Of a DNA stretch of 49,951 nt, positions 14,675-45,139 are shown piece after piece. The position numbers and the translations under genes were made by a program. This DNA is from Spirochaetota bacterium (GTDB taxonomy: Bacteria > Spirochaetota > UBA4802 > UBA5550), in assembly GCA_022709405.1 (NCBI GenBank), contig JAKLIV010000001.1, forward strand, positions 1-49,951. Reading direction: 5' to 3'. Each line of letters opens with the position of its first letter. The first letter of the stretch is position 1. Below the pieces are notes generated by a model. It saw only the letters and a program-made list of their open reading frames with translations, had not been told where the DNA came from and ran no database searches.

Positions 14675-14792
14675 ACCTGGCAGCGTCCTACTCTCCCACA
14701 CAGTGCCCCGTGCAGTACCATCGGCGATGAGAGGCTTAACTGCTGTGTTCGGAATGGGAACAGGTGTTTCCCTCTCTCTGTAACCGCCAGGG
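14675..14792 (-). rRNA. rrf: 5S ribosomal RNA
   Basis: On the minus strand the sequence contains the hallmark 5S block CATTCCGAACACAG, then the loop-B region (AGTTAAGCCTC) and the 3' segment GAGAGTAGGACGCTGCCAGG that pairs with the 5' CCTGGCGG. Length is about 118 nt; flanking GGCAACC/GGTTGCC would extend helix I. No 16S, 23S or tRNA is adjacent, so the gene is unlinked. A TTGACA-N17-TTTATG promoter-like sequence directly upstream would start transcription close to the mature 5' end. End positions are approximate to a few bases. Confidence 0.95.
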
Positions 14793-16603: not shown

Positions 16604-17524
16604 TCAACAATACACTCCCAGGCTTTCCTTCAGCATTTTGACCATCTCTTCGCGAAGTTCCTTGGGTTCGAGTATCTCCACATCCCTGCCGTACATGAAC
16701 AGCTGCTTGCACAGGTACCTGTCATCCGACACGTTGAAGCGCGCCTCGATCCATGCGCCGTCGGGGGATTTCTCGATCACCGGGTCGATTATGCTCAGGA
16801 ACTGCTCCATGGGGTTCTCGATCGCGGATGAATACCGGATCCTCACGAAATGTTTTTTACCGATGAACGATCCCAGCGATCCGCTGAAAGCCTCGTCCGC
16901 AGTCATCGCGGGATCCGGACAGTCCTGATCGGTCAGCTTCAGGTTCCTGATCCGGTTCACGATGAAGAGGCGGGGATTTTTCTCTCCGGGAATACCGCAG
17001 TACAGATACAGGTTGTTGTTGCGCAGCACGAGATCGTACGGGTCTAGGGTGTAGTGCTTTTCCTCGCCCTGGTTGTTGGTGTAATCGCACTCGATGCGCT
17101 TGTTGTCTTTTGCCGCGAAATAAATGCTGGCCAGCATCCACAGGCAGTCCTCCGGGTGGCGCTTCATGAGCTGGTCGAGCACGATCTCGCGCGAGGAATC
17201 CCTGGCCACAAACAGGCAGTAGACGTTGATAAGGCTCGCGAGCTTGTTGGTTTCTATCGGAGAAGCGAGCCTTACCCTGCGCCCGCCTTTACCCATCCCA
17301 ACATCGATGCCGAGATTTTTTTTAAGGTCATTTTTAATGTACTCGCGTATGCTCTTGTCGGTGAGAGTCACCCGGTCTTCGTCCAGGCTGAGCTTGTCTG
17401 CCAGGGACGTACCGTTCCACTTCGTGGAATCGTTCGGGTTCTGGAGCAGGGCGATGATGTGAAGAAAGCGTTTGATCACCGCGAGCTTCTTCTCGGGATC
17501 GGGGATGATGAACTGTTTTTCCAT
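16604..17524 (-). CDS. WYL-domain transcriptional regulator
   Basis: The 306-residue protein has an N-terminal winged-HTH-like part (1-95), a WYL domain at about 140-200 (DPYDLVLRNNNLYLYCG, then RLFIVNRIRNL) and a C-terminal WCX-like extension (225-306). WYL regulators such as PafBC, BrxR and CapW control DNA-damage or phage-defence genes and sense nucleic acid ligands. It is divergent from ssb. The gap between them carries the palindromic repeat family R1, a candidate operator. ATG 17524 has AGGAAA upstream. Confidence 0.88.
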   Translation of the reverse strand: MEKQFIIPDPEKKLAVIKRFLHIIALLQNPNDSTKWNGTSLADKLSLDEDRVTLTDKSIREYIKNDLKKNLGIDVGMGKGGRRVRLASPIETNKLASLINVYCLFVARDSSREIVLDQLMKRHPEDCLWMLASIYFAAKDNKRIECDYTNNQGEEKHYTLDPYDLVLRNNNLYLYCGIPGEKNPRLFIVNRIRNLKLTDQDCPDPAMTADEAFSGSLGSFIGKKHFVRIRYSSAIENPMEQFLSIIDPVIEKSPDGAWIEARFNVSDDRYLCKQLFMYGRDVEILEPKELREEMVKMLKESLGVYC

Positions 17525-17623
17525 GGGCGTTTCCTGGGATGAGTATTGAGTTAACTGCTATAATTATCGGCTTTTTATACCCCCTCCCTGATGGGATGGG
17601 GCAGGGGGAGGGCGAAATTAATT

Positions 17624-17718
17624 CAACCTCTACCTTCAAGGTCTACCTTGTCCAATCCCCGTATGTTACATTAACGCCATCACCCGAGGGCAAACCCTGC
17701 AACAGGATGACCCGCGGG
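17624..17718 (+). repeat. Dispersed repeat R1, copy 1 (promoter/leader-like) upstream of ssb
   Basis: The core is the palindrome ACCTTCAAGGT followed by CTACCTT, i.e. three half-sites, then TATGTTACATT. After it comes a leader with a CCTG/CAGG hairpin and the self-complementary CCCGCGGG. It lies in the divergent gap between the WYL regulator and ssb. Related copies are at 21193, 25562, 28674 and 48283; copy 5 also shares the leader. Confidence 0.6.
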
Positions 17719-17750
17719 GAATAAATCAAACGTACTTGGGAGGTAAACCC

Positions 17751-18074
17751 ATGAACAAACTCTGCATCAGCGGCCGTGTCACCATGGCCCCGGTTCTCAA
17801 GGAGCTGGAAAACAACAACGCACTGTGCACCTTCTTCATCGCCAACGACATCCACTTCGGATCTAACAGGAAAACGGGCTTTTTCAAGGCAACGGCCTGG
17901 GGCCAGCAGGCCAGGATCATCGCCGGGCACGCCTCGGTGGGGTCAGAGCTTTTCATATCCGGAAGGCTCGAGCAGTACCGGTACGACGATGAGAACGGCA
18001 AGACCGTGTACGACAACAGCATCGTGGTCGAGCAGTTCGATTTCGGCTCGCGGCCTGCCGAGAAAACGGCATAG
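17751..18074 (+). CDS. ssb: Single-stranded DNA-binding protein (short, tail-less)
   Basis: The 107-residue OB-fold protein begins MNKLCISGRVTMAPVL and contains FFKATAWG and LFISGRLEQYRYDDENGK, typical SSB strands. It lacks the acidic C-terminal tip (DDDIPF) by which housekeeping SSB recruits partners, so it is likely a specialised paralogue. ATG 17751 has GGGAGG 7 nt upstream. It heads a possible operon with the membrane WYL protein and rmuC, divergent from a WYL regulator. A role in stress-induced handling of single-stranded DNA is inferred. Confidence 0.88.
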   Translation: MNKLCISGRVTMAPVLKELENNNALCTFFIANDIHFGSNRKTGFFKATAWGQQARIIAGHASVGSELFISGRLEQYRYDDENGKTVYDNSIVVEQFDFGSRPAEKTA

Positions 18075-18098
18075 GGGGTAGTATTCCCTCACCCCCGG

Positions 18099-18121
18099 CC
18101 CCTCCCCCGCAGGGGGAGGGG
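18099..18121. repeat. REP-like hairpin (R7)
   Basis: CCCCTCCCCC and GGGGGAGGGG form a 10-bp stem with loop GCA between ssb and the next gene. Members of the same hairpin class occur at 22492, 23560 and 25652 with different but still paired arms. Confidence 0.6.
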
Positions 18122-18139
18122 TGGAAGAGGGTATAATGT

Positions 18140-18754
18140 ATGAAACTCATCGGTCTGTACATCATAATCCTTATCCTTGCAGAGGCCCTGCTGCCTGCGC
18201 CGGGAATCGAGGATGCGCTGCCCGGGTTCTGGGACGCGTTCAACGAAGAGACCGGGTACATGGTAAGCCGGTACGGGTTCTACCTGCCCCTGGACGAGTA
18301 CCGTTTCGTGTTCTGGAAGGAGATCGCCCTGCTGACGCTCGGGGCCATGGCCCTGTGGTACCGGGCCAGGCGCAGTGCGCTCGAGCATGAAAATGAAAAC
18401 CTGCGCGAGATTGTCCTTACCCGAAAGACGGCGGCAGAACCCGAGAGCAAACCGGTTCCGGTCTGCGTTGAAGTAACAGGCGACATGGAACCGGCAGTGA
18501 ATGACGTCGAGGAGCCGGTTATTGTTCCGTCAAATGAGGTTCTGGAAGCGGTCAGGGTCGCCCGGTGCACGTGCCAGGAAATCAGGTTCCTGTATCGCGA
18601 CCTGGAAGGCAGGGTGACCGAGCGAAGGGTGCGGCCTCTCGAGATTTACCACCGTGACGGGCACAGCTATGTGCGCGGGTGGTGCAGCCTGCGCAGGGAC
18701 GAGCGCACGTTCAGGATAGACAGGATGGTTTTAATGGCTTCGCAATCCACTTAA
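18140..18754 (+). CDS. Membrane-anchored WYL-domain protein
   Basis: The 204-residue protein has two hydrophobic spans (about residues 2-20 and 58-75), a variable linker and a C-terminal WYL-type domain from ~145 to 200 (FLYRDLEGRVTERRVRPLE, later YVRGWCSLRRDERTFRIDRM). There is no HTH, so it is not a classical regulator. WYL domains are known ligand sensors that can bind single-stranded DNA. Placement between ssb and rmuC, and opposite a second WYL protein, suggests a membrane sensor for DNA ends or single strands (inference). ATG 18140; the gap to ssb holds a REP-like hairpin. Confidence 0.75.
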   Translation: MKLIGLYIIILILAEALLPAPGIEDALPGFWDAFNEETGYMVSRYGFYLPLDEYRFVFWKEIALLTLGAMALWYRARRSALEHENENLREIVLTRKTAAEPESKPVPVCVEVTGDMEPAVNDVEEPVIVPSNEVLEAVRVARCTCQEIRFLYRDLEGRVTERRVRPLEIYHRDGHSYVRGWCSLRRDERTFRIDRMVLMASQST

Positions 18755-18813
18755 TGGGGGGCGTAAGATGAAGAAAACCATCCCGGGGCACATTCAAACA
18801 GAGAGGTATTCAA

Positions 18814-20184
18814 ATGAATATAACCATGATTCTTCTTGCGGTGCTGGTGCTGATCAACCTGGTCATACTGGTCAGGTCCTTCTTTAAATCCGCATCGGCG
18901 CCTGCCGATTACCAGCAGACCTATAAGCTGATCGATTCGAAGATGAACGACTTCGCCAAAATTCTGGGCGGCGGGTTATCCGACAACCGGCGCGAATACG
19001 GCCTGAATTTCAAGGAATTCAGAAAGGAGCTCGGGGAGCTTTTCAGCCGGTTCAGCGTGACGATGGAGCAGAAGACCGAGGGCCTTTTTAGCATGACGCT
19101 GAAAAACCTCAGGGAAAACCGCGAGGAGATGTCTGCATCGCTGGGATCGTTCGAGGAGAAGTTCACCCGCACGGTCGCCGAGCTCACGAAAAGCACGTCA
19201 GAGAAGCTCGAAAGCATCCGCGGGGGCGTCGACCGGAAGCTCGAATCCATCCAGAAGGACAACAACGAGAAGCTCGAGGAGATGCGCAGAACGGTCGACG
19301 AGAAGCTGCACTCCACGCTCGAGAAGCGGTTGGGTGAATCCTTCAGGCTGGTGAGCGACCGGCTCGAGTCGGTGCAGAAAGGTCTCGGCGAGATGCAGAG
19401 CCTGGCAAGCGGCGTGGGCGACCTCAAGAAGGTGCTGTCGAACGTGAAATCCAGAGGCGTTATCGGCGAGTACCAGCTCGAGGCATTGCTGGAGCAGCTG
19501 CTCTCGCGCCAGCAGTACGAGAAAAACGTGAAAACTAAAAAAGGCGGGCGCGAGAACGTGGAGTTCGCGATTAAAATTCCTGACAAGAACACCGAGGACA
19601 GCTTCATCTGGCTGCCGATCGACGCGAAGTTCCCGACCGGGGATTACGAGCGGCTCCAGAACGCATACGAGGCCGCTGACAGGAGCCAGGTCGAAGAATC
19701 GGTGAAGGCCCTTGCGTCCCGGATCGAGAAGTTTGCCAGAGACATCCACGAGAAGTATGTCGATCCGCCGCATACGACGGATTTCGCGGTCATGTTCCTT
19801 CCGTTCGAGGGACTGTACGCGGAGGTGCTGCGGATACCGGGACTGTTCGAGAAGATCCAGAACACGTACAAGGTGACGATCACCGGGCCCACGACCGTAT
19901 CTGCCCTGCTGAACAGCCTGCAGATGGGATTCAGGACGCTGGCGATCGAAAAGCGCTCGGTGGAGGTATGGCAGGTCCTGGGCGCGGTGAAGACGGAGTT
20001 CGGCAAGTTCGGCATGGTCATCGAGCAGGCGAAGAAGAAGCTCGACGCGGCCCGGGACGAGCTCGAGAAGACCGACACGCGCACCAGGAAGATCAATTCG
20101 AAGCTCAAGGACATCGAGACGCTGCCGGAGAACGAGGCGGTGAGGATGATCGGGAACGGGGATACTGTCGAGGAAAACGAATAG
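18814..20184 (+). CDS. rmuC: DNA recombination protein RmuC (chromosomal copy)
   Basis: The 456-residue protein has an N-terminal membrane anchor (residues 3-22), a long coiled coil (~40-200) and the RmuC domain (about 205-430) with the signature WLPIDAKFPTGDYERL. RmuC proteins limit inversions and structural DNA rearrangement and carry a restriction-nuclease-like fold. It follows the membrane WYL gene by 59 bp on the same strand. A second, different RmuC (signature PVDAKAPLDAY) is encoded at 43237-44679 on the integrative element. Confidence 0.93.
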   Translation: MNITMILLAVLVLINLVILVRSFFKSASAPADYQQTYKLIDSKMNDFAKILGGGLSDNRREYGLNFKEFRKELGELFSRFSVTMEQKTEGLFSMTLKNLRENREEMSASLGSFEEKFTRTVAELTKSTSEKLESIRGGVDRKLESIQKDNNEKLEEMRRTVDEKLHSTLEKRLGESFRLVSDRLESVQKGLGEMQSLASGVGDLKKVLSNVKSRGVIGEYQLEALLEQLLSRQQYEKNVKTKKGGRENVEFAIKIPDKNTEDSFIWLPIDAKFPTGDYERLQNAYEAADRSQVEESVKALASRIEKFARDIHEKYVDPPHTTDFAVMFLPFEGLYAEVLRIPGLFEKIQNTYKVTITGPTTVSALLNSLQMGFRTLAIEKRSVEVWQVLGAVKTEFGKFGMVIEQAKKKLDAARDELEKTDTRTRKINSKLKDIETLPENEAVRMIGNGDTVEENE

Positions 20185-21469: not shown

Positions 21470-22093
21470 TTACTGGCCTGCGGTGGCGATGACGCCCGAT
21501 GATTCTGATACCGCGGCTGCCCCGGCGTACGCCTGATCGGTGACCACGGCATACACCGCGTACATGGCCCCGGGTTCAAGGCCGGTGACGGTCACCGGAG
21601 ACGCGGTGTTCTCGCCGAAGTCGATATGCTCGAGCGGCCTGGTCTGGAGATCGCCCGATACCTGCTGGTAGAAGAGGGCCAGGTGTTTGCCGTTTGAAAG
21701 CGGCGCGGGAGTGAACTCGCATCGTATCGCGCCGGGCGCGCCGGCTGCGGCGGTGAGGACAACGGGCGCGATATCGCCGACCGGGGCCGAGAGCCTGACC
21801 GGCCTGCCTTCGACGCACGCGCGGAAGTTCGCTTTCATGAACGCGTTGTACCCGGTCATGCGGTTCTTCGACGCAAGGGCGCTCCACCCTGACTGCATCA
21901 GCCCCGCGATGCCGTTCCAGGCGTCGATGAGCATTGAAAACGCAGCCCTGATTTTGAGCTGTCCCGGCGTCGCCGTTTTTTTGTACGTTCCGAGCGTGCG
22001 CATGCACGTCTCGCCGTTTCGCCGGTAAAATACCATTTTACCAACCTTGTTCCTGACTCCTTGAAACATGGGATTGAGATCGATTTCGGCCAT
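21470..22093 (-). CDS. Hypothetical protein resembling the DUF6266 type, with a fibronectin-III-like C-terminus
   Basis: The 207-residue protein starts MAEIDLNPMFQGVRNKVGKM and contains TPGQLKIRAAFSMLIDAWN, a pattern like DUF6266-type proteins that often occur in phage-like or surface contexts. The C-terminal ~90 residues (VTVTGLEPGAMYAVYAVVTD) look like a fibronectin type III repeat. No signal peptide is seen. ATG 22093 has AAAGGAGG 8 nt upstream. It is GC-rich, unlike its neighbours, and monocistronic. The function is unknown. Confidence 0.7.
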   Translation of the reverse strand: MAEIDLNPMFQGVRNKVGKMVFYRRNGETCMRTLGTYKKTATPGQLKIRAAFSMLIDAWNGIAGLMQSGWSALASKNRMTGYNAFMKANFRACVEGRPVRLSAPVGDIAPVVLTAAAGAPGAIRCEFTPAPLSNGKHLALFYQQVSGDLQTRPLEHIDFGENTASPVTVTGLEPGAMYAVYAVVTDQAYAGAAAVSESSGVIATAGQ

Positions 22094-22522
22094 TGTGGGC
22101 CTCCTTTAATTTTGTTACGGGGCCTCCACGGGCTCCCGCTGCCGTCATGCGAAACTCTTAACCATCGGGTTAATCGCAGAGGGCATCCGTGTATATACAT
22201 CCGCCGCGGGGAAAGGTTACAGGACGCGAAAAAAAATTTGAAATTTTTCTGTGAAACAAAATTTTTTCGATTATCCGTCACTGCCGCCCGGCAGCCTGTT
22301 AGGCGGGATCGACTCCCCGGGCAGTAAACGTTTATCCGCAATTGTTACGCCAGGGCATGCCGCGGCCCGTATTTTATTCGAGGTAGAACATACATAGAAC
22401 ATGAAGATAAGTTGATGGGATGGGGAAGATACCCCCAAAACCCCCCACAGGGGGGCTTGAAGAGTGTATGATGGTGGTATTCATTCTTGCCCCCTCCCTT
22501 GAGGGAGGGAGGGGAGGGTGTT
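22094..22522. other. Intergenic region with palindromes
   Basis: Contains an AT-rich inverted structure (about 22227-22270, AAATTTTT-type arms), a C-tract/G-tract hairpin near 22440-22460, and an R7 REP-like hairpin CCCTCCC/GGGAGGG at 22492-22509. No gene is seen. Confidence 0.5.
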
Positions 22523-22846
22523 TCAATTAGTGCGTATCGCTATGCCGTGGTTCTTGATTTCCCATACAAGGGGGTCAAGGTCGGTGAATTGCGTGGAATT
22601 ATAGGGAACGGGTTCTATGCGGTTGTCTATTTCACTGGTAATTTTCATCACCCTGATTCTTTCGCGGTAACGATCTTCCGAGAAGTCATCGGAAATCAGC
22701 GCAATGTCGATATCGCTCCAGTCATGTTCTGAACCTGCAGCGTATGAACCGAAAAGGTACGCCTCTTTGATGTTGATGTTATTGCTCCTCAGAACTTCGA
22801 TAGACCTTCTGACGGTTGCCATTATTTCATCTTTGACTTGACCCAT
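22523..22846 (-). CDS. MNT-type nucleotidyltransferase antitoxin (MntA-like)
   Basis: The 107-residue minimal nucleotidyltransferase carries GSYAAGSEHDWSDIDIALI, i.e. the GSxxxG...SDxD catalytic motif. In HEPN-MNT modules this enzyme AMPylates and silences the HEPN toxin. It overlaps the upstream HEPN gene by 25 bp, so the two are translationally coupled. ATG 22846 follows AAAGG. Confidence 0.9.
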   Translation of the reverse strand: MGQVKDEIMATVRRSIEVLRSNNINIKEAYLFGSYAAGSEHDWSDIDIALISDDFSEDRYRERIRVMKITSEIDNRIEPVPYNSTQFTDLDPLVWEIKNHGIAIRTN

Positions 22847-23223
22847 TGGTAGACCTTTTTTATCTCATCAAGTTCTTTCGTCGTGAATTCTTTTGTACAT
22901 AATTTTCGGAAGCTTTTCCTGATATCGGGATAGCGCGCCTCTATGTTGAAAGTGCTGATCTTTATCAGGCTTTCCTTCTGATCGTCTGACAGCTCAAGCC
23001 CGGCTGAAACAGCAAGCCGCTCAAGGTTATGAATCAACGGCGCATGTTGCCTGATCTGTTTTACATAATATGCCTTGAGCAGTTTTTCAAGCGCAAGATG
23101 GCCAAAAAACAGCGAGTATGAATAATCTTCTCTTTCGAAAAGATTGGCCGCTACTTTCAGGTCATTGTCAGCTTCTTCAAGCCAATATTCTTCAACTTCA
23201 TCCCAATTGATGCTTTCAGTCAA
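22822..23223 (-). CDS. HEPN-domain toxin
   Basis: The 133-residue all-helical protein has HEPN features: WLEEADNDLKVAANLFE, SLFFGHLALEKLLKAYYV and the RNase-type motif R-x6-H (RQHAPLIHN). HEPN partners of MNT proteins are ribonucleases or translation inhibitors. The start is TTG 23223, 7 nt after AAAGGAG; no ATG or GTG fits better. It is the first gene of the HEPN-MNT pair. Confidence 0.9.
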   Translation of the reverse strand: MTESINWDEVEEYWLEEADNDLKVAANLFEREDYSYSLFFGHLALEKLLKAYYVKQIRQHAPLIHNLERLAVSAGLELSDDQKESLIKISTFNIEARYPDIRKSFRKLCTKEFTTKELDEIKKVYQWVKSKMK

Positions 23224-30028: not shown

Positions 30029-33000
30029 ATGAAATTTGGAATTTACGAGCAAGTAATTAGTAGACTTTTAGATACTCAGATTAGTGATAAAAAATTTAAA
30101 GTCGAAACGGAAAAGATTGGAGAAGAAGAGTCGCCTCGGATTTTATCAAAGTATTTATCTGAAATCATTGAGAAAGGATTAACTAATCTCAAGGATAGTG
30201 GTGCCGATTTATCTAGCCAGATAGAACTCTGTAATAAAATTATTGATGATATTGCGATTTCCGTAAAACAAGATGATTTGCGAGAATTTATCATAGAAAA
30301 GAAAGCCGAGCTATTGCTTGCCTTTCTTGAAAAACAAAATACTATATATGCCATTGATGATAACATTGAAATAGTGCGTCCTAAAACATCCATATCGCAA
30401 AGTTCCCTTTTTACTGGTGCACCGCTGGAACCGACTATATCCTCTGAATTTAAAAAAGAAATATTAAGCTGCAATAGAATAGACATGTTGGTTTCATTTA
30501 TCAAGTTCAGCGGATTAAGACTTATTATTGAAGAACTAAAAGAATTTACAAAAAATAATAAGTTAAGGGTTATAACAACCTCATACATGGGTGCAACGGA
30601 TATTAAAGCTGTTGAAACATTAAGAGAACTCCCTAATACCGAAATAAAGATATCGTACGACACAAAGAGAACTCGACTGCACGCTAAAACCTATGTGTTT
30701 TACCGTGATACAGGTTATACCACTGCATATGTCGGTTCATCAAATATGTCAAATGCAGCAATGTCAGACGGACTTGAGTGGAATGTAAAGTTAACTGCGA
30801 AAGACCAGCCGGAAACAATCAAGAAAATTGAAGCTACTTTTGAAAACTATTGGAATAATAATGAATTTGCATCGTATACCCAGGCTGAAAAGATAAACCT
30901 GGAAAAAGCGTTAAAAGATGAAAGAGGTTTAAGTGAGACAGGGTTTACATATAATTTTACAATAACACCATATCCTTTTCAAAAAGAGATTCTTGATAAG
31001 TTGGATGCTGAAAGAAAAATAAGAGATCACTGGAAAAACCTTATTGTTGCGGCAACTGGAACAGGTAAAACGGTTATATCCGCTTTTGATTATAAAAGAT
31101 ATCGAATTGAAAATAAAGGCAAATCGAACAGGCTTTTATTCATAGCACATAGAGAAGAAATATTAAAACAGAGTATCTCTTGTTTTCAGGCTGTATTACG
31201 AGAACCGAATTTTGGTGAGTTGTTTGTCGGTAATAATAAACCCTCAAACATAGATTATTTGTTTATGTCAATTCAGACATTTAATTCAAGGGAGTTCCAC
31301 AAATATACTAAATCTGATTTTTATGATTATATCATTATTGATGAATTTCATCACGCAGCAGCACCATCATATCAGAGAATTCTTGAATATTATACACCAA
31401 AGATATTTCTTGGTTTAACTGCAACACCTGAACGCATGGATGGAAAAAGTGTTCTGGAATATTTTGATAATCGAATAGCCGCCGAAATACGTCTTCCTGA
31501 AGCGATAGAAAGAAAACTATTATCTACATTCCAATATTTTGGCATTTCTGATGATGTAGATCTAAGCTCTTTAAAATGGTCACGTGGCGGATATGATAAA
31601 TCAGAACTTGATAATGTCTACACTGGTAATGATTTCAGAACAAAACAAATAATACGATCCCTTGACAGGTATTGTACGGATATTAATGATGTTAAGGGAC
31701 TTGGATTTTGTGTTTCAATCAAACATGCTGAGTATATGGCTGGTTTTTTTAATAAACAGAATATACGATCAATCGCACTAACTTCTGATTCAGATGACAA
31801 ATTAAGAAATGATGCTAAACAAAAACTAGTCCGTGGTGAAATACGATTTATTTTTGTAGTGGATCTCTATAATGAAGGTGTAGATATTCCAGAAGTGAAC
31901 ACTATTATGTTTTTAAGACCAACCGAGAGTTTAACGGTTTTTTTACAACAGTTGGGGCGTGGTCTTAGATTGGTTGAGGGTAAGGATTGCCTTACCGTAT
32001 TAGATTTTATTGGACAGGCAAACAAGAAGTATAGCTTTGAAGAAAAATTTAAGGCCCTTTTGTCTAATACTAATCATGGTATTCAGAAAGAGATCAAGGA
32101 AAGTTTTCCTAACTTGCCGAGAGGGTGTTATATATCATTAGAAAAGAAAGCTAGAGAACATATACTCGATAACATTAAAAAGGCATTGGGTTCAAGAGCT
32201 GCACTGATAGGAAAGATTGCGAGCTTTAAAGAAGATACAGGATTCGAACCGTTTTTAAGAAAGTTTATTGAGTATTATCATCTTGAGTTAAAAGATTTAT
32301 ATAGCAAGGATAGTTTCAGCAGACTGTGTGTTGAGGCTGGCGTATGGAATGATTTTAAAGAGGAGAATGAAAAGATAATTTTTAGTGGATTAAAAAAAAT
32401 ATGTTCCATTGATTCGCGTAATTGGATCAAATTTTTACTTGATACTTTTCCGGTAATTGAATCAAAAAAAGAAACGAGCTTTAATGAAAATGAAATTAAA
32501 ATGCTCTTAATGTTTCATTATACTATATGGTCTCAATCTCTTAAAGATACTGGCTTTAAAAATATTATAGAAAGTATTATTTCACTAAAAAATAATCCTG
32601 TCATGTTTAACGAATTGATTCAGCTACTTGAATATCGTTATGAAAAAATTGACTTCATTGATGAAAAAGTTGATCTTGGTTTTGATTGCCCACTCGATTT
32701 ATATTGCACTTATAGCCGGGATCAATTGCTTAGCGCTGTCGGTTTCTATACAAAAGATAATATGCCGGCAATGCGAGAAGGGGTTAAATATATACCAGAT
32801 AAGAAGCTCGATGTATTTTTAATTACACTTAATAAATCTGACAAGGATTACTCACCTACAACAATGTATAATGATTATTCAATAAATGAGACTCTTTTTC
32901 ATTGGCAATCACAAAGCACGACACCTGATAATTCAACAACTGGCTTAAGGTATATTAACCACAAAGAACAAGGCAGTAAAATAGCTTTATTCGTAAGAGA

Positions 33001-33160
33001 ATATAAAAAAAACGAACTCGGAGCTTCAGCATATACTTATCTCGGTCTTGCAAGCTATGTAACTCACGAAGGTTCTCGTCCAATGAGTATAACATGGAGG
33101 CTTGAAAGACCAATTCCTGCAAAATTTTATAAGAAAACAAATAAATTGATAGCAGGCTAA
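30029..33160 (+). CDS. PLD-nuclease / DEAD-type helicase / DUF3427 protein
   Basis: The 1043-residue protein has an N-terminal phospholipase-D-type nuclease motif (LHAKTYVF with His218 and Lys220, then GSSN 236-239) and an SF2 helicase core: Walker A ATGTGKT (342-348), DEFH (438-441), TATP (464-467) and QLGRGLR (~635). The C-terminal region (about 830-1040) fits DUF3427. Such proteins are common in defence islands and probably translocate on and cut invading DNA. A single PLD half-motif suggests dimerisation for cleavage. It is AT-rich; a Nudix gene follows after 4 bp. Confidence 0.9.
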   Translation: MKFGIYEQVISRLLDTQISDKKFKVETEKIGEEESPRILSKYLSEIIEKGLTNLKDSGADLSSQIELCNKIIDDIAISVKQDDLREFIIEKKAELLLAFLEKQNTIYAIDDNIEIVRPKTSISQSSLFTGAPLEPTISSEFKKEILSCNRIDMLVSFIKFSGLRLIIEELKEFTKNNKLRVITTSYMGATDIKAVETLRELPNTEIKISYDTKRTRLHAKTYVFYRDTGYTTAYVGSSNMSNAAMSDGLEWNVKLTAKDQPETIKKIEATFENYWNNNEFASYTQAEKINLEKALKDERGLSETGFTYNFTITPYPFQKEILDKLDAERKIRDHWKNLIVAATGTGKTVISAFDYKRYRIENKGKSNRLLFIAHREEILKQSISCFQAVLREPNFGELFVGNNKPSNIDYLFMSIQTFNSREFHKYTKSDFYDYIIIDEFHHAAAPSYQRILEYYTPKIFLGLTATPERMDGKSVLEYFDNRIAAEIRLPEAIERKLLSTFQYFGISDDVDLSSLKWSRGGYDKSELDNVYTGNDFRTKQIIRSLDRYCTDINDVKGLGFCVSIKHAEYMAGFFNKQNIRSIALTSDSDDKLRNDAKQKLVRGEIRFIFVVDLYNEGVDIPEVNTIMFLRPTESLTVFLQQLGRGLRLVEGKDCLTVLDFIGQANKKYSFEEKFKALLSNTNHGIQKEIKESFPNLPRGCYISLEKKAREHILDNIKKALGSRAALIGKIASFKEDTGFEPFLRKFIEYYHLELKDLYSKDSFSRLCVEAGVWNDFKEENEKIIFSGLKKICSIDSRNWIKFLLDTFPVIESKKETSFNENEIKMLLMFHYTIWSQSLKDTGFKNIIESIISLKNNPVMFNELIQLLEYRYEKIDFIDEKVDLGFDCPLDLYCTYSRDQLLSAVGFYTKDNMPAMREGVKYIPDKKLDVFLITLNKSDKDYSPTTMYNDYSINETLFHWQSQSTTPDNSTTGLRYINHKEQGSKIALFVREYKKNELGASAYTYLGLASYVTHEGSRPMSITWRLERPIPAKFYKKTNKLIAG

Positions 33161-33164
33161 TCCA

Positions 33165-33533
33165 ATGATAAAAGTAACAGCAGCTGTTATCAGGAAAGAT
33201 GGGAAAATTCTTATAACGCAAAGGTCGGCGTTTGATAGACTAGCGCTTAAGTGGGAATTCCCAGGAGGAAAGATTGAGGAAGGCGAAACAGCTGAAGAAT
33301 GCTTAGTGAGGGAGATAAAAGAAGAATTAAATCTTGATATAAAGATAGATAAATTCTATATGAAAAATATTTTTGAAAATATTGAACTTAATACATATTT
33401 CGCACATATGATTACAGATGAAATGGTGCTGAATGTACATAATGATGCAAAATGGGTAAAACTTGAAGAACTTAGTAATTTCAATTTTGCACATGCAGAT
33501 ATTGAGGTTGTTGAAAAATTAAAGGCCATCTAA
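33165..33533 (+). CDS. Nudix hydrolase, MutT-like
   Basis: The 122-residue protein has the Nudix box GGKIEEGETAEECLVREIKE followed by EL, metal-binding Glu residues included. It resembles (deoxy)nucleoside-triphosphate pyrophosphohydrolases. It begins 4 bp after the helicase stop, so the two are coupled. In this setting it more likely acts on a nucleotide signal or modified nucleotide in defence than in housekeeping (inference). Confidence 0.9.
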   Translation: MIKVTAAVIRKDGKILITQRSAFDRLALKWEFPGGKIEEGETAEECLVREIKEELNLDIKIDKFYMKNIFENIELNTYFAHMITDEMVLNVHNDAKWVKLEELSNFNFAHADIEVVEKLKAI

Positions 33534-33536
33534 TCC

Positions 33537-35207
33537 ATGGATTCCAAAACCACAACCTATTACTCCACCCACGTCAAAGACACTGCCGAGCTCTACGGCT
33601 CGAACAGGGGCGAGGGAATCAGCAGATATTTCTCAACTGCATTTATTCCCGGAACCCGGATACTCGATATCGGCTCAGGCACGGGCAGGGACCTTTCGAT
33701 ACTCCTTTCGCTGGGATACGATGCATACGGTGTCGATGCCTCGCAGGAGATGGCTGATTATTCACTTTCACATACACCAGCATTGAAAGAACGGGTGAGG
33801 GTGGGCGCAATACCGTCAGAAAAGCCCCTTTACGAAAAGCTATTTAACGGCATATTGTGCTCGGCAATGCTTATGCACCTGCCCGATGAGCTGTTATTCG
33901 ACGCTGCATTTACCATAAGGAACAATCTCGAAAAGGGCGGCAGGCTTCTGTTGTCGGTGCCATTGACCAGACCCGGTATCGATGACACGGGAAGGCTTTC
34001 CGACGGAAGGCTCTTCATCATCCGCCCATCGGAATACTACACGCTTCTGTTTGAGCGCATCGGCTTTGCCAGGATATCGTACCATGAAGACGAAGACAGC
34101 CTGGGCAGGCAGGGAATCAGGTGGGCGATCATGATATTCGAGCTTGGCTCGCTCAAAGGCAGGGCAATCGACAAGATCGAAAGCATTCTGAACAGGGACA
34201 AAAAAACGGCGACGTACAAGCTGGCGCTGTTCAGGGCGCTGTGCGACATTGCGCAGACCGGGTACAATTCTGCATGCTGGTATCCTGACGGCAGGGTCGG
34301 CGTAGACATCAAGAGCGTGGTCGACCGGTGGATCATGTATTACTGGCCCCTGTTCGAAAGCCCTGATTTTATACCGCAGCTTAATGGAGAGAAAAAGACC
34401 GGCACCAAGTCGATCCTGTTCAGGTCGGGGATGAACGATCTGATTGATTCGTACAGCAGGCAGGGCGGTTTGAGCCGGTTTTACATGGATCTCGCAGGTG
34501 ATGTCGACCTTTCATGGAAGAACCAGTTGTATGCCGGGGTATTTAAAAAAGTATCAACTGCAATAATCAGGGGGCCGGTTGTCTATGCAGGCGGTTCGCT
34601 GGACGATGAAAAAGTGTTCGAATACAACGCACGGGACAGGCGCATCGTGTTTTCAGCAGACATCTGGCGGGAGCTCTCGCTCATGGGGCACTGGATCAAT
34701 GACGCGCTCATCATGCGCTGGGGAGAGCTCACGTCTGCCATATCGGGCAGCGAGATACCGGCTTCAGGGGTGATAGATCTCTTATTGAAGATGCCGGTCA
34801 CCGAGAGAGACACGCAGTTGAGCAGGGCTGTTTTCAGCAATTCATCAACGCTTGAATGCGTATGGACCGGTAAACGTCTGAACGATACATTCGATATGGA
34901 CCATGTAATCCCGTTTTCACTCTGGCGCAACAATGACCTGTGGAACCTGCTGCCTGCTGATCCGAAAGTGAACAACAGGAAAAGAGAGAAGCTTCCATCG
35001 CGTGAGTTGTTGAAATCCCGCAGGGACATTATACTCGGTTACTGGGATTTGATCCGGGAACAGTACCCGTCCCGGTTTACCAATGAATACCGGATAATGA
35101 CCGGTAACCCGTTCAATACCAACTGGCAGAACTCACTCTTCTCATCCATCAGCGAGGCGGTCGAGATTACGGCCCTGCAGCGCGGGGTTGAAAGGTGGGG
35201 AGGGTGA
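33537..35207 (+). CDS. Fusion of class I SAM methyltransferase and HNH nuclease
   Basis: In this 556-residue protein, residues 1-205 form a UbiE-like methyltransferase (motif I LDIGSGTGRD at 43-52). There is no NPPY/DPPY motif, so DNA-base methylation is unlikely. Residues ~225-400 are a helical domain with LALFRALCDIA and WIMYYWPLF. Residues ~440-500 form an HNH motif (ECVWTGKRLN, FDMDHVIPFSLW with Asp455-His456, then NLLPADPKVNNRKR). It starts 4 bp after the Nudix stop but is far GC-richer than the three preceding genes, so the cassette is a composite. Probably nuclease-based defence. Confidence 0.82.
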   Translation: MDSKTTTYYSTHVKDTAELYGSNRGEGISRYFSTAFIPGTRILDIGSGTGRDLSILLSLGYDAYGVDASQEMADYSLSHTPALKERVRVGAIPSEKPLYEKLFNGILCSAMLMHLPDELLFDAAFTIRNNLEKGGRLLLSVPLTRPGIDDTGRLSDGRLFIIRPSEYYTLLFERIGFARISYHEDEDSLGRQGIRWAIMIFELGSLKGRAIDKIESILNRDKKTATYKLALFRALCDIAQTGYNSACWYPDGRVGVDIKSVVDRWIMYYWPLFESPDFIPQLNGEKKTGTKSILFRSGMNDLIDSYSRQGGLSRFYMDLAGDVDLSWKNQLYAGVFKKVSTAIIRGPVVYAGGSLDDEKVFEYNARDRRIVFSADIWRELSLMGHWINDALIMRWGELTSAISGSEIPASGVIDLLLKMPVTERDTQLSRAVFSNSSTLECVWTGKRLNDTFDMDHVIPFSLWRNNDLWNLLPADPKVNNRKREKLPSRELLKSRRDIILGYWDLIREQYPSRFTNEYRIMTGNPFNTNWQNSLFSSISEAVEITALQRGVERWGG

Positions 35208-43236: not shown

Positions 43237-44679
43237 TCACAGTTCCACCATCCCGTCACCGCCATCATCCTCATCATCCTTCTTGACCGGCTTCCTGGCG
43301 GTGCGCTCGATGGCTTCAGGTTCCTGGATCTCCTCTGATGCATTCACGAGTTCTTTGAACTTCCCGGCAGCCGGTAGGAGGCGACTTTCCAATGACCCGA
43401 CCGCATCGTTGTACGATTTCACCGCTCCGTCGAGAGCCTTGCCGGTCTTGAAGATATGCTCGAAGAACTTGAGGAGCCGTGAATACAGCTCCTTGCCCTG
43501 GAGGGCGATGTTCCGGGCGTTCTCGGTGATGTGGATCTGCGACCATCCGTAGGCAACGGTCTTGAGAAGGCCGATGAGGGATGTCGGGGTCGCGAGCAGT
43601 ATCCTCGATTCCATGGCATACTGCAGAAGGCCGGGGTCCTGCTCGAAGGCTGCGTTGAGGCAGGCGTCGTTCGGGATGAACATGACCACGAATTCGAGCG
43701 AGCCGCCGAACTGCTGCCAGTAGCTTTTCTTGCCGAGATCGGTGATCCGCGACTTGATGGCGCGGACATGGTCCGCGAGCTTGCGTCTCCTCACATCCTC
43801 GGAAGCGGCCTCGATCGCCTCGAGGTATGCATCGAGCGGCGCTTTCGCGTCAACCGGCAGGATGCCCTCCTGGGGAAGGTAGATGACCATGTCGGGACGG
43901 CCTTCATCGGTCGCCGCCTGTTCGATGAAGTCGACATGCTCGACCATGCCCGCCATCTCAACAATGCGGCGAAGCTGCATCTCTCCCCATTTGCCGCGAA
44001 CCGTGTGGCTCTTGAGCGCCTGGGCCAGCGTTGACGTGGTGGTCTGGAGCTCGGAGTGGCTGCGCGTCAGCTGGGCGAGCTGTTCGGACAGGGCGCCGTA
44101 GGAGCTTTCACGCTTTTTCTCGAGCTCCCTGACATGGGTGCCGAGGGTTTCGAGACTCGTCTCGAGCGGAATAACGAGGTTCTTGATCTCTGCCTTATGG
44201 GTCGACCAGTCGCCGCGCACCTGGGTGAGCATCGAATCAAGCGTTTCCCGGGCGCGCTTCATGAACTCATCGGTGTTGCCGGCCAGTATCTGGCCCGAAA
44301 GCGCCTGGAAGGTTTCGCGGAGGTGCTCCTGGGCGCGATCAATCCACTGGAGCTTCTCGCTCGTCGATTCGCGTTCCTTGTTGTTTGAAGCGATCATTTC
44401 ACGGAGTTTGGCGTTCTCCTCGCGGGAAACGTCGAGTTCCATTTCAAGGCGCGGGATCCTCTGTGATTCACCCTCGAATTTCGATTTCTGGGCGAGGAGT
44501 TCGTTGACAATGGCCTCCCTTGCGCCGAGATCAGCGTTCAGGCGGACAATGTCCGCTTCGTTTGCCTCGTTCCTGCTCTGCAGGACGGCCAAACGCGACC
44601 GCCACCAGAGCCATGATATGATCCCGGTCAGGATTATCCCCGCAAAAACCATGCTCAATGAATATGCCGTTAGTTCCAT
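43237..44679 (-). CDS. RmuC-family protein (element-borne paralogue)
   Basis: The 480-residue protein has an N-terminal membrane anchor (SLSMVFAGIILTGIISWLWW), a coiled coil to ~200, and the RmuC domain with ILPVDAKAPLDAYLEAIEAA. The signature PVDAKAP differs from the chromosomal copy (PIDAKFP), so it is not a recent duplicate. I used ATG 44679 with GGAGG upstream. RmuC proteins recur on defence-carrying elements; the role here is unknown. Confidence 0.9.
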   Translation of the reverse strand: MELTAYSLSMVFAGIILTGIISWLWWRSRLAVLQSRNEANEADIVRLNADLGAREAIVNELLAQKSKFEGESQRIPRLEMELDVSREENAKLREMIASNNKERESTSEKLQWIDRAQEHLRETFQALSGQILAGNTDEFMKRARETLDSMLTQVRGDWSTHKAEIKNLVIPLETSLETLGTHVRELEKKRESSYGALSEQLAQLTRSHSELQTTTSTLAQALKSHTVRGKWGEMQLRRIVEMAGMVEHVDFIEQAATDEGRPDMVIYLPQEGILPVDAKAPLDAYLEAIEAASEDVRRRKLADHVRAIKSRITDLGKKSYWQQFGGSLEFVVMFIPNDACLNAAFEQDPGLLQYAMESRILLATPTSLIGLLKTVAYGWSQIHITENARNIALQGKELYSRLLKFFEHIFKTGKALDGAVKSYNDAVGSLESRLLPAAGKFKELVNASEEIQEPEAIERTARKPVKKDDEDDGGDGMVEL

Positions 44680-44917
44680 CGTGTCCTCCAAAATATTGGT
44701 GCCTGTCGAACAGGCTGAAAAACGAGCACCAATAATAATGAAAAATCCCTCTAACGGCAACCGTGCGTCATGAAATTTTGACATCAGGGGAAATTTTATC
44801 TGCATTCGGACTCCCTGCATCCACCACGTGGCCTTTTCACATCGGCCCATACGGTTTTCTGGAAAGGACGAGTAATCAGCAGCAGCTGAAATACAAAACA
44901 ACGATCCGGAGGAACGG

Positions 44918-45139
44918 ATGAGCAAAGAAATGGTTTACGGACTTGCGGTGACGCTCGCCGACCAGCTGTACAATTCGCTGGCCAACAACGAGCGCAGAAG
45001 CTGGGTGATCAATTCGCCTGAATTCAGCATCATGATCGTCGGAGATCGGCCGAACAACTGCGTGGAGCTGGTGATGTATGACGGCGATTCCCTGATAGAC
45101 AGGGCGTCGCTCAGCATGGAGAAAGGGGAGGCCCAGTGA
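44918..45139 (+). CDS. Hypothetical protein, upstream partner of the LAGLIDADG gene
   Basis: A 73-residue protein (MSKEMVYGLAVTLADQLYNS) without a recognised domain. ATG 44918 follows CGGAGGAACGG. It ends one base before the next start, so the two are translationally coupled. Confidence 0.6.
   Translation: MSKEMVYGLAVTLADQLYNSLANNERRSWVINSPEFSIMIVGDRPNNCVELVMYDGDSLIDRASLSMEKGEAQ

Follow-up and report, generated by a model that had tools for sequence, protein, structure and literature searches.

WYL proteins are known to sense nucleic acid as soluble regulators, as components of helicases, or as accessories of Cas systems. Among the described systems closest to the locus studied here are the WYL-WCX regulators, namely the mycobacterial heterodimer PafBC, which is activated by single-stranded DNA (ssDNA), the DriD-type activators, and the BrxR and CapW repressors of defense islands. 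In PafBC, ssDNA binding needs the WYL domain of PafB and is lost in PafB mutants of R181, Y196, R204, R208, R211, and R214, single or grouped, while PafC tolerates the loss of its two arginines (PMC11804915). In the Shield system, reported only from Pseudomonas, a BrxR-type WYL regulator governs ShdA, a nuclease with an RmuC domain and a membrane anchor (PMC10270631). Fusions of WYL with HTH, helicase, nuclease, nucleotidyltransferase, BRCT, and TerB domains are described in the available portions of two surveys of the WYL domain (PMC4012209; PMC6789036).

We analyzed a stretch of 49,951 nucleotides (hereafter the window) of contig JAKLIV010000001.1 in the 4.38-Mb draft genome of a Spirochaetota bacterium (GCA_022709405.1, designated G000) and compared it with related genomes. 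In the initial annotation, four adjacent genes for a WYL regulator, a tail-less single-stranded DNA-binding protein (SSB), a membrane-anchored WYL protein (memWYL), and RmuC had been joined into one candidate ssDNA-response system.

Organization of the locus

The four genes were found as annotated, each being an open reading frame with a Pfam match (Table 1). The genes for the WYL regulator and SSB are divergent, with 226 bp from start to start, and ssb, the memWYL gene, and rmuC lie on one strand with intergenic gaps of 65 and 59 bp. The only rRNA or tRNA gene found in the window is a 5S rRNA gene (14675–14791, minus strand). Three genes in a row at 30029–35207 encode a type IV restriction-like helicase/PLD protein (1043 aa), a PDC-S07 candidate defense protein, and a methyltransferase-HNH protein, and toxin-antitoxin-like and integrase genes are also present in the window. 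A nucleotidyltransferase/HEPN-like gene pair lies near ssb in the window (21470–23223) and at locus L139 (240–2817), and a family of ~207-aa proteins is found near ssb in two genomes (window 21470–22093 and L139 240–866).

Table 1 Features of the locus and their positions in the window.
Feature	Position	Strand	Remarks
WYL-WCX transcriptional regulator, 306 aa	16604..17524	-	Pfam WYL 1.3e-12, WCX 5.9e-12; N-terminal region presumed DNA-binding
Divergent promoter region, regulator/ssb	17525..17750		Candidate; includes ssb leader and hairpin with ribosome-binding site
Accessory tail-less SSB, 107 aa	17751..18074	+	Pfam SSB 4.9e-21
G/C-rich palindrome, ssb/memWYL gap	18096..18124		10-bp perfect stem, REP-like
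memWYL, 204 aa	18140..18754	+	Pfam WYL 1.1e-14, residues 133–196
rmuC, 456 aa	18814..20184	+	Pfam RmuC 6.4e-74; physical neighbor outside the conserved module

The soluble regulator and the membrane WYL protein

Both WYL proteins pass the curated cut-off of the Pfam WYL model (PF13280, 21.8 bits), with 47.9 bits for the regulator and 54.6 bits for memWYL. WYL and WCX domains were detected in 7/7 scanned members of the regulator family. The designation of the N-terminal region as HTH rests on its position and on analogy within the family, because none of the Pfam HTH models scored above noise there or in the homologues. Orthologues of the regulator in the order share 36–58% identity, and close ones are present in 16 of 46 genomes. 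The nearest structures by sequence are 7tzv/7u02, 9cu3, 9pfq, 8tp8, and PafC. The matches to 7tzv, 7u02, 9cu3, 9pfq, and 8tp8 (2.6e-5 to 1.1e-4) liken the regulator to the DriD-type WYL-WCX activators, to which 8tp8 belongs. The window regulator differs from this type in having Y and I at the positions of PafB R181 and R211, where 7tzv, as judged by eye, has R at both. As a putative WYL-WCX regulator of neighboring genes, with restriction-like genes ~10 kb away, it is also reminiscent of BrxR and CapW, but memWYL and SSB, with which it recurs, do not belong to the known defense genes. No entry named BrxR or CapW was found among the PDB matches of the regulator up to an E-value of 1.

The memWYL protein begins with a hydrophobic span, followed by a short, presumably outside segment with the conserved motif YGFYLPxxxYxFxxW, a second span that would continue into a long helix, a variable linker, and the C-terminal WYL domain. 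The first span is strong (residues 3–21, mean Kyte-Doolittle 2.2) and is missing from some relatives, which start immediately before the motif. The second span, from residues 54–56, is weaker (mean 1.3) yet is the one conserved in relatives. The earlier description, with two spans ahead of a terminal WYL domain, is borne out. The protein consists of the WYL domain and the hydrophobic spans, has no WCX, DNA-binding, or enzymatic domain, and does not share the HTH-WYL-WCX architecture. With no output domain, it may act either by keeping its ligand tethered to the membrane or through contact with a partner. According to the positive-inside rule, the WYL domain is probably cytoplasmic. A low-confidence AlphaFold model calculated without an alignment (pLDDT 50, compared with 38 for the regulator) suggests short strands and then a single long helix crossing the membrane. 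The best PDB sequence match of memWYL is PafBC (6sj9, 2.1e-7).

The membrane WYL proteins form a genuine and conserved family. Of 393 genomes sampled from the phylum, only eight gave matches to a profile of the whole protein over most of its length; they come from one order and are divided between two families, f1 (G000, G003, and G004) and f5 (G023, G032, G036, G040, and G045). The many other matches of this profile have the WYL domain alone. A profile of the N-terminal part retrieved the same eight genomes, in each of which this part is fused to WYL, and a broken fragment in G004 was the sole additional match. A phage or plasmid origin was rejected, as phage and plasmid records contain no full-length match. 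A query of genome contigs with the single memWYL sequence gave no match. Among the fusions listed in the available portions of the two WYL surveys, the second of which omits architectures with fewer than 100 sequences, none is membrane-anchored (PMC4012209; PMC6789036), and WYL is unmentioned in a survey of transmembrane transcription regulators. No description of a WYL domain fused to a membrane anchor was found in the literature consulted.

Ligand groove of the two WYL proteins

Aligned with PafB, the window memWYL carries each of the six residues required for ssDNA binding, with the groove signature RYRRRR. Five of the six positions are invariant in the eight members of the family and the R211 position is occupied by R, K, or M, so that each member retains five or six residues. 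Twenty-two ordinary WYL proteins of the phylum, a favorable sample taken as the best domain-only matches, likewise have five or six. The window regulator has Y, Y, E, R, I, and R at the positions of R181, Y196, R204, R208, R211, and R214, respectively. In the regulator family, a few rows of which are unalignable across the last positions, Y or W is commonest at R181, the equivalents of R204, R208, and R211 are mostly gone, and Y196 and usually R214 are kept. The loss of most groove arginines makes the soluble regulator a weak candidate for sensing ssDNA, and this half of the earlier proposal, in which both WYL proteins respond to ssDNA, is not supported. The half concerning the membrane protein agrees with the preservation of the ssDNA-binding residues of PafBC. 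As the groove is intact in memWYL and degenerate in the regulator, memWYL is a plausible nucleic-acid sensor. Judging from these residues, memWYL rather than the soluble regulator is likely the nucleic-acid binder, which reverses the earlier emphasis.

The locus resembles PafBC in that two WYL proteins are encoded close by and one of them, with the six residues of PafB, has a sensing groove. It differs in that memWYL lacks HTH and WCX domains and carries a membrane anchor, in that the groove of the partner regulator is degenerate, and in that the organism does not belong to the Actinobacteria. All seven aligned members of the memWYL family share the G, Y, P, F, and W of the outside motif, and this would suit a protein that senses an outside signal, with the motif as the receptor and the WYL domain as a dimerization or docking module for the regulator only. 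However, the groove residues are conserved at least as much as the motif and the outside segment is short, and we regard such a function as improbable.

Conservation of the gene neighborhood

The four-gene set is not conserved among the 46 genomes of the order. Lack of conservation in related genomes, named in the initial annotation as grounds for refutation, applies to this set but not to the pair of the WYL regulator and memWYL, whose linkage is partial. The regulator is present in seven of the eight memWYL genomes, the exception being G040, and is encoded less than 5 kb from memWYL, at a distance of one or a few genes, in four (G000, G003, G023, and G032). The hypergeometric P value for their co-occurrence in the 46 genomes is 0.0014 in a test that ignores relatedness. 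In G036 and G045, any linkage is obscured by contig ends. The gene order in G023 and G032 is the regulator, a ~100-aa protein, and memWYL, all on one strand. In G003, which represents a second genus, the regulator gene and ssb diverge, and behind ssb come an SNase gene, three further genes, and then those for the ~100-aa protein and memWYL; the regulator, ssb, and memWYL lie within 6 kb, and no other flanking genes are in common with the window.

In five of the eight genomes (G003, G023, G032, G036, and G040), the gene immediately before that of memWYL encodes the undescribed ~100-aa protein, which is absent from the window. Pfam holds no match for it and the PDB no credible one by sequence, and it was not found in viral contigs. 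Members of this family are located at L093 (4700–5002), L095 (8804–9199), and L096 (12470–12769), and some were also found in a few genomes in which no memWYL was detected. The recurrent partners of memWYL are the soluble regulator and the ~100-aa protein, with the tail-less SSB in some genomes.

The neighbors of the regulator family vary among loci and include an AAA ATPase (6/21 loci), SNase (G001), ssb, the ~100-aa protein with memWYL, and others. The regulator may be a generic local regulator, because it is more often beside other genes such as the AAA ATPase. This variety, together with the restriction-like, toxin-antitoxin-like, and integrase genes of the window, is consistent with a generic mobile regulator placed beside varied genes, in which case memWYL, ssb, and SNase would be separate accessory genes of a variable region with no joint mechanism. 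The near-constant presence of the regulator in memWYL genomes and a linkage that spans two families with different flanks argue against this explanation, which we consider possible but doubtful. The commonest neighbor of the WYL306-family regulators is a double AAA ATPase of ~740–790 aa (L099 8674–11019, L173, L174, L175, L176, and L180), and the two are possibly a second, broader WYL-associated pairing.

The tail-less SSB and its leader

SsbB of Bacillus subtilis is a truncated, tail-less accessory SSB. Truncated, tail-less accessory SSBs are also known from Anabaena (Alr0088 and Alr7579; PMC3976300), and the window SSB is similar in being an OB fold without the acidic tip. What sets it apart is its association with a WYL regulator and memWYL. 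The window SSB ends in ...FDFGSRPAEKTA (PAEKTA at the end), without the acidic tip (DDDIPF) seen in the housekeeping SSB of the same genome (...DNPFSDDDIPF); the term tail-less used in the initial annotation is therefore right. The protein is the third SSB of the genome, and no competence genes were seen among the annotated genes.

Orthologues with 62–75% identity are present in G003, G004, and G036. These genomes and G000 all have memWYL and the regulator, and the three genes lie within 6 kb in two of the four; in G004 and G036, each of the three is on a separate contig, the regulator of G004 being located mid-contig. Overall, memWYL is present in 4/5 SSB genomes, in agreement with the association of the membrane WYL protein with SSB noted earlier. 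Most of the f5 memWYL genomes do not have this SSB.

The ssb leader (17640–17760 of the window) is conserved in the four genomes G000, G003, G004, and G036. It contains a hairpin, TGGGAGGTAAACCCATG from 17737, with the ribosome-binding site in the loop; the length of the stem and loop varies and the pairing is kept. A known riboswitch was rejected as no Rfam family matched. A WYL operator common to the window and G003 was also rejected, since the one block that the two clearly share is the leader of ssb with its ribosome-binding site. In G004 and G036 this block is found again with no regulator beside it, and it therefore belongs to ssb.

RmuC

Close rmuC genes are present in 14/46 genomes of the order (13 besides that of the window). 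Six of the other genomes also have memWYL (G003, G023, G032, G036, G040, and G045), and in each of these the contig with rmuC is not the one with memWYL; in four relatives of the same family, rmuC has its own shared context of other genes. RmuC was therefore rejected as a member of the module and is a neighbor by chance or by recent rearrangement. The locus is similar to Shield in having an RmuC-domain protein with an N-terminal hydrophobic span near a WYL regulator, but rmuC is not kept beside the WYL genes, occurs in other contexts in relatives, and does not form a conserved defense operon with them. The window rmuC gave a weak PADLOC match to RTasRmuC (8e-11). A second RmuC-domain protein of the window (562 aa, 43237–44925) has a strong PADLOC match to reverse-transcriptase-associated RmuC (8.5e-47).

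The original proposal of a single ssDNA-response system, in which the regulator, SSB, memWYL, and RmuC act together and both WYL proteins sense exposed single strands, is in line with the adjacency of the genes in the window, the joint occurrence of SSB and memWYL in four genomes, and the intact groove of memWYL. It is difficult to reconcile with the separation of rmuC from memWYL in the other genomes, the degenerate groove of the regulator, and the absence of the tail-less SSB from most f5 memWYL genomes, and we therefore think it very unlikely.

A putative sensor at the membrane

We favor, at an even chance, the reading that the locus is a small lineage-restricted module around memWYL, predicted from sequence to be a membrane-tethered ligand-binding WYL protein under WYL control, and that RmuC lies outside it. 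We infer its topology, ligand, regulation, and any physical partnership as follows. The outside segment and the transmembrane/long-helix stalk would hold the intact WYL ligand groove at the cytoplasmic side of the inner membrane. From its residues and family, the groove would most likely bind ssDNA, other nucleic acid, or a nucleotide. The soluble WYL-WCX regulator would control the module, and analogy with PafBC makes it the obvious candidate partner of memWYL. A more specific version, which we judge unlikely, is a split WYL sensor, in which memWYL would detect ssDNA or other nucleic acid at the membrane and relay this to the groove-degenerate regulator by touching it directly. If this is true, sensing and DNA binding are on two separate proteins. 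An intact-groove WYL domain on a membrane stalk would place nucleic-acid sensing where phage, conjugated, or taken-up DNA enters.
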